The notes under the pieces are model-generated. The model searched no databases. It worked only from the letters and a program-made list of their open reading frames with translations, and was not told the DNA's origin. A stretch of 64,000 nucleotides of DNA, from positions 1 through 64,000 of the forward strand of contig CALWDX010000006.1 of assembly GCA_944376805.1 (NCBI GenBank), in the 5' to 3' direction. This stretch comes from an uncultured Clostridia bacterium. GTDB lineage: Bacteria; Bacillota; Clostridia; Lachnospirales; CAG-274. Made by a program: the position numbers and the translations under genes. Below, one piece after another: positions 29,634 through 33,592 of the stretch (the first letter of the stretch is position 1; the number at the start of each line of letters is the position of its first letter).

Positions 29634-30323
29634 ATGAAAAAAGCAATTTTATTAGTTTGTTTTGGTAATAAAAATATAGAAGAGCAATTAAAAAAATTAA
29701 AATATAAAATAAACATATACTTTAAATATTATGATATATATATTTGTTTTACAAGTAAATTTTTTATAAAAAAATATGGTTATGATATATCAAAAGTATT
29801 AATTGATATTAAAAATAAAAAATATAGTGAAATTTTATGTTTACCTATATTTACAATAGATGGCATAGAATATAGTAATATTAAAAAATTTCAAAATATA
29901 AAAATAGCTAAACCCTTATTATATAGTGATGAAGATTTTCAACTTGTTTATAATTTTATAAAAACTAAATATAATCAAAATACAATATATATATGTCATG
30001 GAACAGAAGCAAAATCTAATGAAAAGTATAAAAGGTTATTTAATATGTTTAAAGATAAAAATATATTTTTTGCAAATTTAGAAAGTAGTCCCTATATAGA
30101 AGATACTATAAAAATACTAAAAATTAAAAATATAAAAAATATATGTGTTAAACCTTTTTTATTATTTGAGGGTAAGCATATACAAAATGATATAGCATAC
30201 ACTATAAAATATAAATTATTAGAAAGTGGTATAAATGTAACATTAGATTTAAAACCACTTTTGCAATATGAAGAAATTATAAATATATTTATAAAACATT
30301 TAAAAGAAGTAAAGGAGTTTTAA
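29634..30323 (+). CDS. cbiK: Sirohydrochlorin cobaltochelatase CbiK-like
   Basis: 229-residue class II chelatase that inserts Co2+ (or possibly another metal) into sirohydrochlorin. The metal-binding triad known for CbiK is present: His122 in ICHGTEAKS, Glu150 in NLESSP and His182 in FEGKHIQNDIAY. The protein is diverged at the N-terminus (LVCFGNKN for the usual VSFGTS) and Lys/Ile-rich. No other cobalamin or siroheme genes are nearby. Its TAA overlaps the permease ATG (TAATG), so they are cotranslated. Confidence 0.78.
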   Translation: MKKAILLVCFGNKNIEEQLKKLKYKINIYFKYYDIYICFTSKFFIKKYGYDISKVLIDIKNKKYSEILCLPIFTIDGIEYSNIKKFQNIKIAKPLLYSDEDFQLVYNFIKTKYNQNTIYICHGTEAKSNEKYKRLFNMFKDKNIFFANLESSPYIEDTIKILKIKNIKNICVKPFLLFEGKHIQNDIAYTIKYKLLESGINVTLDLKPLLQYEEIINIFIKHLKEVKEF

Positions 30324-31759
30324 TGATAGATTATATAAAAACGTTTTTATACAAAAAATTTAATATTTTAGAACATAATTCTAATTTAAAAACAGAAATT
30401 TTAGCTGGTATTACAAATTATTTTACATTAATATATTTAGTTATGCTTGTGCCAGAAATACTAATGAATGTATTTTATAATCAAGTATTAGTAAATGGAA
30501 AACAATTAGGATATTTTGTTTTAGATAATGGATTAACATTAAATGAAATGCTTGTAGCTCTAACAGCAGCATCTTTTATATGTTCAGGGGTAAGTTCAAT
30601 AATAATGGGATATTTAACAAATTTACCATTTGTACAAGGTCCAAGCCTTGCAGTAGGAACATTTATAACTTATACAGTTTGTTTAAATTTTGGATATACT
30701 TACAATCAAGCATTAGCTATTGTATTTATATCAGCTTTTATATTTTTTATTCTTGCTTTATTTGGTATGGAAAAGAAAATACATAAAGCAATACCTAAAA
30801 ATATTAAATATGCTGTTACTTGTGGTATAGGGTTGTTTATAGCATATCAAGGACTTTTAAAGGCACATATTATAGACCAAAGTTCTATAAATACTAATCT
30901 TTTTGATTTATCTACTATAACTAGTAAAGATACTAAAACAGCATTATTAGCTTTAGCAGGTGTAATATTAATAACAATATTACATAAAAAACATATTTAT
31001 GGTTCAATATTTATAGGTAAAATTATTTGTATTTTATTAGCATTTCCATTAGGACTTATAAGTTTAGAAAAAATTAATTTTTTTACACCTATAAGTTTAG
31101 ATGCAGTATTTTTTGAGTTAAACTTTAATGGTATTATAGATTTTAGCAATAGTAGCATTATGTTTAAGACTTTAATAACCTTACTTGTTGTATTATTTTC
31201 AATTTGTATAATGGATATATTTGAAACAATGGCTATGCTTATTGTTGCAGATAATTTTGTAGAAATAAGTAAAGAAAGATTTGCGAATAAAAATATACCT
31301 CAAATATTAGAAATAGATGCTATAACTACTTCTGTTGGTTCTGCAATAGGAAGTGTTACAGTATCAACATATGTAGAAAGTACAGCAGGTATAGTGGAAG
31401 GTGGAAGAACAGGAGTAACATCAATAGTAACAGGAGTTTTATTTTTGCTTTCTACATTTTTATCACCACTTGTAGCTTTAGTACCTTCAGCAGCAACAGC
31501 AACAACTCTTATAGTAGCTGGGGTTTTAATGATGAATATAATGAAATTTATAGATTTTGAAAATGTAGATGAAGCAGTACCAGCATTTTTTACTATGATT
31601 TTAATGCCACTAACTAATAGTATATTAGTAGGTATAGCTTTTGGTGTTATATCATATGTTGCAATACATATATTTTTAGGTAAAGCACATAAAGTTAATA
31701 GAATATTATATGTTTTATCTATATTTTTGTTAATAAGTTTAGTATATTTACCAAGATGA
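30323..31759 (+). CDS. NCS2 purine permease (AzgA-like)
   Basis: 478-residue proton-coupled nucleobase transporter with about 12-14 membrane helices. The start NSNLKTEILAGITNYFTLIYLVM and FVQGPSLAVGTFITYTVC, plus VGSAIGSVTVSTYVESTAGIVEGGRTG, are characteristic of the AzgA/PbuG branch (adenine, guanine, hypoxanthine). The ATG overlaps the cbiK stop. Substrate not determinable; the pairing with cbiK is unusual. Confidence 0.9.
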   Translation: MIDYIKTFLYKKFNILEHNSNLKTEILAGITNYFTLIYLVMLVPEILMNVFYNQVLVNGKQLGYFVLDNGLTLNEMLVALTAASFICSGVSSIIMGYLTNLPFVQGPSLAVGTFITYTVCLNFGYTYNQALAIVFISAFIFFILALFGMEKKIHKAIPKNIKYAVTCGIGLFIAYQGLLKAHIIDQSSINTNLFDLSTITSKDTKTALLALAGVILITILHKKHIYGSIFIGKIICILLAFPLGLISLEKINFFTPISLDAVFFELNFNGIIDFSNSSIMFKTLITLLVVLFSICIMDIFETMAMLIVADNFVEISKERFANKNIPQILEIDAITTSVGSAIGSVTVSTYVESTAGIVEGGRTGVTSIVTGVLFLLSTFLSPLVALVPSAATATTLIVAGVLMMNIMKFIDFENVDEAVPAFFTMILMPLTNSILVGIAFGVISYVAIHIFLGKAHKVNRILYVLSIFLLISLVYLPR

Positions 31760-31781: not shown

Positions 31782-31833
31782 ACCTACCATTGTATTTAAT
31801 ATAAATATAAAAAATGAAAATACAAAGGTAGGT
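31782..31833 (+). repeat. Inverted repeat upstream of spoIVFA
   Basis: ACCTACC-A-TTGTATTT (31782-31797) is mirrored by AAATACAA-A-GGTAGGT (31818-31833), 15 paired positions with one central A-A mismatch and a 20-nt loop. The right arm contains the spoIVFA SD (GGTAGGTGA), so the RNA hairpin would hide it. No T run follows, so it is not a typical terminator. Confidence 0.7.
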
Positions 31834-31842
31834 GATTTTTTA

Positions 31843-32750
31843 GTGAGTGATAAAAAAGAATTTTATAGAAGATTAGCTGAAAATTCTTTAAAAGGTGTAA
31901 AAACACAAAGAACTATAAAAACAACAAGGATTAATACACCTAATCATACAACTAGAAATAACGATTATAGAAATACAACAAAAAATGGTATGATAAAATT
32001 TGATGAACAAAATAATACACAAGCAAGTTCTAAATTTTTTATGCAATGTATAATAAGTATTTTAATAATAGGGATATTTTATTATTTGTCAAATAGTAAT
32101 TCAGAAATAGCTAAAAATATAGTTAGTAAAACTAAATCTATGATAAATAGTGAATTGAATATTGATAATAAAATAGATGATATTTTATCAAAATTTAATA
32201 TTAAAACAAATATTGGAAATACAAATAAAGATGGTGTTTCAATAGATAGTGAAGTTATAGAACAAATGGAAAAAGAAATTGAAAATGCACCAAAAAAATA
32301 GATAGCCTCAAGACACCAAATGTTGTTCTTGGGGCAGAAAATAAATGGATAAATCCAGTAGAAAATGGTATTATAACAGGTTATTTTGGAAATAGGGAAA
32401 ATCCTATATTAAAAAAACAAGAATTTCATAATGGTTTAGATATAGGGGCAGATGAAAATAGCCCAGTTTATGCTGTAAAATCTGGTATTATAACAGAAGT
32501 TGGAAATTCAAATACTTATGGTACATATATAAAATATAAAACTTATGACAACTACGAAATAATGTATGCACACCTTAATAAAGCACTAGTTAAAAAAGAT
32601 GATAAAATAGAGGTGAATCAAAAAATAGGCTTAGTAGGTAGTACAGGACTTTCAACAGGTTTTCACTTACATTATACAATATTAAAAAATGGTGAATATA
32701 TAGACCCTATAAATTTTGTAGCACTACCTAAAGCAAACTATTTAGAATAG
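31843..32750 (+). CDS. spoIVFA: SpoIVFA (M23-domain sporulation protein), split by a -1 frame change
   Basis: In the sigma-K checkpoint SpoIVFA tethers and inhibits the SpoIVFB protease in the outer forespore membrane. Frame one (GTG 31843 to TAG 32299-32301) gives 152 residues: basic N-terminus, one membrane helix (about 67-84) and a linker. The M23 domain is in the -1 frame, from IDSLKTPNVVLGAENKW through EFHNGLDIGA (HxxxD) to STGFHLHY (HxH), ending at 32750. It has no start codon of its own before ATG 32562. The switch falls exactly on CCA AAA AAA TAG, followed by a 9-bp stem-loop, so programmed -1 frameshifting is possible; mutation or a homopolymer error are alternatives. Confidence 0.8.
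32292..32335 (+). promoter_or_regulatory. Candidate -1 frameshift signal
   Basis: Heptamer A_AAA_AAA (32292-32298) in the zero frame, then TAG. After a 6-nt spacer comes the stem GCCTCAAGA (32305-32313) with TCTTGGGGC (32327-32335): 9 pairs including one G-U, 13-nt loop. Both parts and the spacing match known bacterial -1 frameshift sites such as dnaX-type signals. Confidence 0.6.
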
Positions 32751-32758
32751 GGGAAAGT

Positions 32759-33592
32759 ATGTTAAAAAAAATAAGTATAAATCCAACTTTTTATGTAGCA
32801 CTAATTTTAATTTTATTTTTTAAAGTTTATAATATATATTTTTATTTTTTCATATTTGTTTTTTTACATGAATTAGCTCATATATTTATGGCTAAAAAAT
32901 TTGGATTAAATATAAAAAAATTAGTTATAACACCTATAGGGCAAATAGCTATAATTGATAATATTGAAAGATTACAATTATATAAAAGGATTTTAATAGT
33001 TAGTATAGGTGTTATATTAAATTTATTTTTAGCTTTAATGTTTAGTATGGTTACAAATGAAAAAATGCAGTTGATGAAAAATATTAACTTATCAATTGCA
33101 TTTTTTAATTGTTTACCTATTTTTCCTTTAGATGGGGGTAGGTTTTTTGCTTATATTTTAGGGAGTAATATAGGAGATTTAAAGGCTAGTATAATATTAA
33201 AAAAATTAAGTTTATTTATTAGTTTTACTTTATTTTTATTAGGTTTTATACAAATGGTTTTATATCCTTATAACATTACTTTATTATGTTTATCCATATA
33301 TTTTATAAAAGTAAATAAAAGTGAATATATATATCAGTTTTATAAAGCTATAATAAATAAAGAACAATATGAAAAAGATAAAATATTAAAAATAAAAAAT
33401 GTATTAATAGATAAAGATTATGAAAATAAAAATATTATATTAATACTAAGTTCAGACTATTATTTAATTATAAATGTATCTATAAATGGAAATATTTATT
33501 TTACAATAGATGAAAAAGTATTTTTAAACTATATACAAGAGTATGGTATTAATGGTACAATATACAATGTAGTTGAAAAAATAATGAAATAA
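32759..33592 (+). CDS. spoIVFB: Site-2 protease SpoIVFB
   Basis: 277-residue M50 intramembrane zinc protease that cleaves pro-sigma-K during sporulation. Zinc motif HELAH near residue 40 within FVFLHELAHIFMAKKFG; the second ligand region is NCLPIFPLDGGRFF. About six membrane helices followed by a soluble C-terminal domain from about residue 190. Begins 8 nt after the spoIVFA M23 frame ends, with SD GGGGA. Confidence 0.93.
   Translation: MLKKISINPTFYVALILILFFKVYNIYFYFFIFVFLHELAHIFMAKKFGLNIKKLVITPIGQIAIIDNIERLQLYKRILIVSIGVILNLFLALMFSMVTNEKMQLMKNINLSIAFFNCLPIFPLDGGRFFAYILGSNIGDLKASIILKKLSLFISFTLFLLGFIQMVLYPYNITLLCLSIYFIKVNKSEYIYQFYKAIINKEQYEKDKILKIKNVLIDKDYENKNIILILSSDYYLIINVSINGNIYFTIDEKVFLNYIQEYGINGTIYNVVEKIMK

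Follow-up and report, generated by a model that had tools for sequence, protein, structure and literature searches.

Organization of the locus

What lies upstream of spoIVFB in the window, by which we mean the whole 64,000-nucleotide stretch of clostridial DNA analyzed here? All of the features between 31825 and 33592 described below are on the + strand. The gene encoding the intramembrane metalloprotease SpoIVFB (M50; Pfam PF02163, E 7.4e-13) occupies positions 32759..33592, and its product contains the HExxH and NxxPxxPLDG motifs conserved in an alignment with its relatives. Directly upstream are two overlapping reading frames. ORF1 (31843..32301), supported by translation, selection and homology, starts with GTG at 31843, ends with GCA CCA AAA AAA TAG at 32301, and encodes a 152-residue zero-frame product that we regard as the short, membrane-anchor form of a SpoIVFA-like protein. 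It has one transmembrane (TM) segment, predicted from the hydrophobicity of the translation to be FFMQCIISILIIGIFYYLS (32035..32091). The RBS-like sequence AAGGTAGGTGA (31825..31835) precedes the GTG start, and AAGGTAGGTGA or AAGGTGGGTGA is also found ahead of the ORF1 start in close relatives. ORF2 (32283..32750), supported by translation, Pfam and selection, is open in the −1 frame, where the translation reads KKIDSLKTPNVVLG and continues through to 32750. The ORF2 product, KKIDSLKTPNVVLGAENKWINPVENGIITGYFG...HLHYTI, contains a Peptidase_M23 (LytM) domain (32424..32708) whose fold is clear from the Pfam match (PF01551, E 1.8e-28) and in which the HxxxD and HxH zinc-ligand motifs are present. 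ORF1 and ORF2 overlap by 16 nt, and the overlap contains the heptamer A_AAA_AAA. In the M23 frame of the window there is no ATG, GTG or TTG before position 32562, and 32562 is itself inside the M23 domain.

Both sigK, scoring above the NCBIfam cut-off, and BofA were found in the window's genome. A gene for a permease-like multi-pass membrane protein lies 5′ of the anchor gene (30323-31759) and is in the same place in loci L023, L025, L027 and L028; with respect to the position of this gene, the upstream neighborhood is conserved in other genera.

The slippery site, the stop codon and the stem-loop

The heptamer A_AAA_AAA coincides with the A7 run at 32292..32298, in the zero-frame register CCA AAA AAA, and the zero-frame TAG stop (32299..32301) abuts it. 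After a spacer of 6 nt follows a putative stimulatory stem-loop, with its 5′ arm at 32305..32313 and its 3′ arm at 32327..32335, for which folding, conservation and pairing counts provide the evidence. The stem has 9 bp, including one G.U pair, and a minimum free energy of −14.5 kcal/mol (z −3.8); none of 200 shuffled sequences was equally stable. A first-pass annotation made without database searches had claimed that the anchor and M23 frames differ by −1 and overlap at CCA AAA AAA TAG, which is exact in the sequence, and that a 9-bp stem-loop begins six nucleotides downstream, which folding confirmed. It had also held that the idea would fall if resequencing showed an eighth A, or if relatives had an uninterrupted frame without the stem. 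When the junction was checked in close relatives, the A-run and the stem were both kept: none of the genomes of the genus with the gene has an eighth A, and in none is the frame uninterrupted.

The heptamer and the stop are invariant, and the stem is retained, in all seven genomes of the genus that have the gene, the window's included. Genus-wide the stem reads GCCTCAAG...CTTGGGGC, with a loop of variable sequence. All 63 stem cells of the seven genomes are paired and eight pairs are invariant, while the closing pair is A-U, G-U or C-G across the genus and has thus changed on both sides. Covariation is nonetheless weak, as the pairs are mostly invariant, and 67 of 500 shuffles score as high. 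The stem arms encode SLK (AGC CTC AAG) and LGA (CTT GGG GCA), using codons that are rare in the 35 ORFs of the window: CTC accounts for 3 of 1500 Leu codons, AGC for 5.8% of Ser codons, AAG for 6.9% of Lys codons and GGG for 5.6% of Gly codons. Since avoided codons are fixed in the stem arms, we infer that the RNA, and not the protein alone, is under selection.

The heptamer alone was rejected as evidence, because at 26% GC such a heptamer is frequent: A_AAA_AAA occurs in frame 23 times across the 35 window ORFs. It is the position of the heptamer, the stem and their conservation that convince. Both reading frames evolve under constraint: among six close relatives the anchor (ORF1) has dN 0.22 and dS 0.48, and among close relatives the M23 part (ORF2) has dN 0.10 and dS 0.57, a dN/dS of ~0.18 that demonstrates purifying selection on ORF2. 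In one further genome of the genus (G003) a close SpoIVFB match was not found and the best sigK match crosses an in-frame TAG; the checkpoint, or sporulation itself, may have been lost there.

Identity of the split gene

Clostridia have been said to lack SpoIVFA orthologs (Galperin et al., PMC3533761; also PMC3416734), and only two spore-forming Clostridia with SpoIVFA were counted in PMC12632252. The gene in the window satisfies the architectural criterion, in that it encodes a TM anchor and an M23 domain and immediately precedes spoIVFB. When fused clostridial proteins were made into a profile, it matched four SpoIVFA sequences of Bacilli with E values of 1e-23 to 1e-30, and in the alignments inspected the match spans the TM segment, the linker and the M23 domain. 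The anchors from within the order of the window's genome in turn match the anchors of the fused proteins with an hhalign probability of 97.6%, although the similarity is low (10% identity). Because of these two matches, to Bacilli SpoIVFA and to the anchors of the fused proteins, we treat the gene as a member of the SpoIVFA family. We consider this assignment likely rather than certain, given the low identity of the anchor; that SpoIVB/CtpB cleave the protein, and that together with BofA it inhibits SpoIVFB, is inferred from B. subtilis. The earlier identification of the gene as spoIVFA thus holds in the sense of SpoIVFA-like, by architecture, position and homology.

Like B. subtilis SpoIVFA, the protein would have a cytosolic N-terminus, one TM segment and an extracytoplasmic M23/LytM domain, and its gene adjoins spoIVFB; as in the B. 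subtilis sigma-K checkpoint, BofA and sigK are present in the genome. Unlike its B. subtilis counterpart, the gene is split over two frames, and its M23 zinc ligands are intact, whereas the B. subtilis domain is inactive (PMC3533761).

As a separate observation, full-length SpoIVFA-like genes encoding a TM segment and an M23 domain lie directly 5′ of spoIVFB in 30 of 40 other clostridial families (L186-L225), which is at odds with the belief that SpoIVFA is missing from Clostridia.

The split gene is a feature of the order

SpoIVFB profile searches covered 48 genomes of the family, 392 of the order and 391 of the class, mostly draft assemblies. The DNA upstream of spoIVFB was taken from 82 loci within the order and from 40 in other families of the class, and the frame relation between anchor and M23 part was called by automatic frame analysis. 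The 82 loci of the order comprise 56 with a split gene, 4 with a fused gene, 18 with the anchor only and 4 that are unresolved (L254, which is truncated, L038, L249 and L178). The gene is therefore split in 56 of the 60 resolved M23-bearing loci of the order. Outside the order all 30 M23-bearing loci are fused and none is split, so the split is a feature of this order. The shift required is −1 in 39 of the split loci and +1 in the remaining 17.

The HxxxD and HxH zinc-ligand motifs are kept in 58 of 61 loci in the order versus 15 of 30 fused relatives outside it; judged by these motifs, it is conceivable that the M23 domain is enzymatically active in the order.

Sequencing error and assembly indels were excluded as the source of the break, which is the same in 56 genomes and has a constant direction within clades. 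Pseudogene decay was excluded by the conservation over 56 genomes together with purifying selection.

Diversity of the −1 sites

A slippery heptamer lies within the overlap in 29 of the 39 −1 loci, where each locus's own codons would lead one to expect 11.4 (naive P 1e-10, uncorrected for shared ancestry). The −1 sites include A_AAA_AAA in genera g1, g3 and g7 and family f15, A_AAA_AAG in g8, f16 and f25, A_AAA_AAC in g2, G_GGA_AAG in f8, and C_CCA_AAG and A_AAC_CCN in f5. Of the motifs measured in E. coli, C_CCA_AAG, G_GGA_AAG and A_AAA_AAG are the three that shift most efficiently (PMC4066793). In g4, in f17 g57 and in some f5 loci the overlap offers no good heptamer, and the candidates there are tetramers of the G_GGN or A_AAN type. 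In a single genome (L175) there is an earlier stop at AAC CCA TAG, which fits an A_AAC_CCA site.

Strong stems follow the site in g1, g2, g3 and f25; examples from genera other than that of the window are L016 (z −4.7), L024 (z −5.0) and L031 (8 bp). Nine f5 genomes share the hairpin CCCACAG.TTCCGG...CCGGAA.CTGTGGG, which starts inside the slippery heptamer; 92% of its cells are paired, three pairs co-vary, and the signal is lost when the partner is slid. A universal downstream stem was rejected, since g7, g8 and several others lack one. In g8, where the stem is absent, AAGGAGG is found upstream of the site, and AGGGAGG-like Shine-Dalgarno (SD) sequences lie upstream of the site in f17 g57. 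No convincing stem was found downstream of the g7 site. An A9 run is found only in g7 and f15; the window has A7. Given its A9 run and the lack of a convincing stem, a different mechanism could act in g7.

The +1 sites

A single −1 mechanism for all relatives was rejected as well, as genus g6 and part of f17 require a +1 shift. The +1 sites are restricted to f17 and to f1 g6, and in every one (17/17) CCC precedes the stop, which is UAG in 16 loci and UGA in one; examples are TTAGAGGAGTCG CCC TAG and CTGGAGTCT CCC TAG C. The f17 loci alone account for 13 of 13 with CCC followed by UAG or UGA (L152, L153, L157, L159-L161, L183, L185, L237, L238 and L240-L242). Most +1 loci have a GGAG/GAGG/AGGA-like or GAGGAG sequence 3-5 nt 5′ of CCC, which is absent, for example, from L157. 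In E. coli, shifting at CCC_UGA has been described (PMC5009743). The criterion for an RF2-type +1 shift, a shift-prone P-site codon before the stop with an upstream SD, is met in both f17 and f1 g6. Judged from sequence alone, these loci appear to represent an RF2-like frameshift in a gene other than prfB.

Evolutionary history

In a maximum-likelihood tree built from the joined products, the proteins from the order all fall on one side of a branch with an SH-aLRT support of 96. The three states −1, +1 and fused need five changes on this tree, compared with an average of 39.5 for shuffled labels, none of 200 shuffles being as low. On this tree −1 is the basal, ancestral state of the order clade, +1 arose twice, separately in f17 and f1 g6, and the fused state was regained twice, once in two genomes of f5 g45 and once in f1 g9, which is the sister of the +1 genus g6.

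A proposed mechanism

The criteria for a −1 signal, namely a zero-frame heptamer in the overlap, a stem at 5-9 nt, and conservation of the site and of both frames, are met in the window. We are highly confident that the SpoIVFA-family gene of the window carries a site for programmed −1 ribosomal frameshifting. At the level of sequence it is established that the site exists and is conserved, that both ORFs are under selection, that the gene has the homology described and that equivalent sites are found across the order; slippage and its rate are inferred. We propose that ribosomes translating ORF1 would arrive at A_AAA_AAA, where the following codon is a stop and the stem lies 6 nt downstream. 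The majority would terminate at UAG and release the 152-residue membrane anchor. In a minority, the two Lys-tRNAs would re-pair one base back and the ribosome would continue in the M23 frame, producing a full SpoIVFA of ~300 residues. A single mRNA would thereby give rise to both the short and the full form of SpoIVFA, and the site would fix their ratio.

What might the ratio accomplish? In B. subtilis, it is the TM segment of SpoIVFA that contacts BofA and stabilizes the inhibited SpoIVFB complex, and SpoIVB and CtpB cut the extracytoplasmic domain of SpoIVFA, releasing the SpoIVFB complex (PMC12632252). By inference from B. subtilis, both forms may sit with BofA on SpoIVFB via the TM segment, and the full form alone would carry the M23 domain and the region cut by SpoIVB/CtpB or docking in the intermembrane space. 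The ratio would then set the share of complexes with the cleavable, M23-bearing form and, if B. subtilis is a guide, the amount of SpoIVFB held inactive and the strength of the answer to the forespore signal. The first-pass annotation had proposed a programmed −1 frameshift yielding a short anchor and full SpoIVFA, and a new control point in the sigma-K checkpoint. The sequence tests support the frameshift, which itself remains inferred in the absence of protein or reporter data; the two products are probable, slippage again being an inference; and the control point is only an inference from known B. subtilis biology.

Alternative explanations

Could RNA polymerase rather than the ribosome slip on the A run, so that an extra or missing A in some mRNAs joins the frames? 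Thermus dnaX uses transcriptional slippage (PMC5009743), and the A7 run of the window and the A9 runs of g7 and f15 could favor it. However, the criterion of a homopolymer of about nine or more A/T is not met by A7, and G_GGA_AAG, A_AAC_CCN, C_CCA_AAG and all 17 of the +1 CCC-stop sites lack a long homopolymer. In addition, slippage by RNA polymerase needs neither the stem nor the spacer of 6 nt, yet both are fixed throughout the genus, and the stop adjoining the heptamer fits ribosomal slippage. We consider transcriptional slippage very unlikely here; it could contribute at the A9 runs, but not explain the whole set. Termination-reinitiation, in which anchor and M23 part would be separate proteins and the second would be started near the ORF1 stop, appears even less likely. 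An ORF2 ATG, GTG or TTG is near the stop in some split loci (for example L152, L185 and L019), but no start codon is within reinitiation reach in 27 of the 56, and a start with an SD is found in only 3. In the window the first possible ORF2 start, at 32562, is within the M23 domain; an M23 domain without signal or anchor would remain in the mother-cell cytoplasm; and reinitiation leaves the slippery heptamers and the invariant CCC unexplained.

In the last alternative only the anchor matters, and either the M23 part would be a relic in decay or the break would be an assembly indel. The complete loss of the M23 part from 18 loci of the order speaks for a relic. Against it, the same break is found in 56 independent genomes, the M23 part is under constraint (dN/dS ~0.18), the zinc-ligand motifs persist in 58 of 61 loci in the order, and the frame direction is constant within clades. 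This alternative is practically ruled out.

Comparison with known frameshift genes

The programmed −1 frameshift proposed here resembles that of E. coli dnaX (tau/gamma) in its A7-type heptamer (A_AAA_AAG in dnaX), its downstream stem-loop and the N-terminus shared by the two products. An upstream SD, as in dnaX, is found in some relatives (L018, g57) and is lacking in the window. Unlike dnaX, spoIVFA has a short zero-frame product and a long shifted product, and it encodes a sporulation membrane protein. The +1 loci of the two lineages resemble prfB (RF2), where an SD and a spacer precede CUU-UGA, in having CCC-UAG/UGA, often with GGAG/GAGGAG 3-5 nt upstream. They differ in that the site is CCC-UAG and not CUU-UGA, the gene is another one, autoregulation is not expected, and 16 of the 17 stops are UAG, which is read by RF1. 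The GeneTack clusters (PMC3711429) and those of Sharma et al. (PMC4066793) rest on the same class of evidence, a conserved frame transition with a shift-prone motif. The main text of PMC3711429 (Antonov 2013) mentions no sporulation, M23 or spoIVF gene, and neither such a gene nor a spoIVFA frameshift is mentioned in the part of the recoding review PMC5009743 (Atkins 2016) that the search covered. The first-pass annotation knew of no earlier report of one, and none was found in the literature searched, which was open-access full text only.

A bolder reading is that programmed frameshifting determines the proportion of short to full SpoIVFA throughout an entire order of Clostridia, as a general and unreported layer of sigma-K control, and that −1 was replaced twice by an RF2-like +1 with the same output, implying strong selection. 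We favor both parts taken together as the likely reading. To our knowledge, conserved programmed frameshifts are not known in ordinary bacterial chromosomal genes beyond a few (prfB, dnaX, copA, cso2). A swap of shift direction, −1 versus +1, within one gene family is, as far as we know, rare. The present case would add a sporulation checkpoint gene, conserved across an order, with −1 and +1 solutions in orthologues, and it makes a direct question testable: what is the effect of short versus full SpoIVFA on SpoIVFB? SpoIVFA-like genes adjoin spoIVFB in most of the clostridial families that were sampled; in the present order they escape notice because the gene occupies two frames. If our reading is correct, a two-frame gene and annotation that does not join the frames may help to explain the supposed absence of SpoIVFA.

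Loci encoding the anchor alone

In the 18 loci of the order without the M23 part, spoIVFB usually begins shortly after the end of the anchor gene. A stand-alone anchor, its M23 part lost, lies 5′ of spoIVFB in L025, L027, L028, L148, L150, L151, L154 and L155; further anchor loci without M23 are L158, L177, L179-L182 and L248. Several lineages have thus dropped M23 while keeping an anchor equivalent to the zero-frame product, and the existence of natural anchor-only genes therefore makes the zero-frame product plausible as a functional protein. In g11 and in several genomes of f5, f12 and f16, the anchor-only proteins end in ...FRIDENIVEQMNNEE or ...FRIDEDILTQIES, and zero-frame products end near the same motif, VSIDSEVIEQMEKEIENAPKK in the window and NFRIDEDILSEIREIEKLYHYNLEKK in L149. 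This conserved motif may mark a point of contact with another protein or of cleavage. Overall, the anchor-only proteins end mostly in a FRIDEDIL-like sequence.
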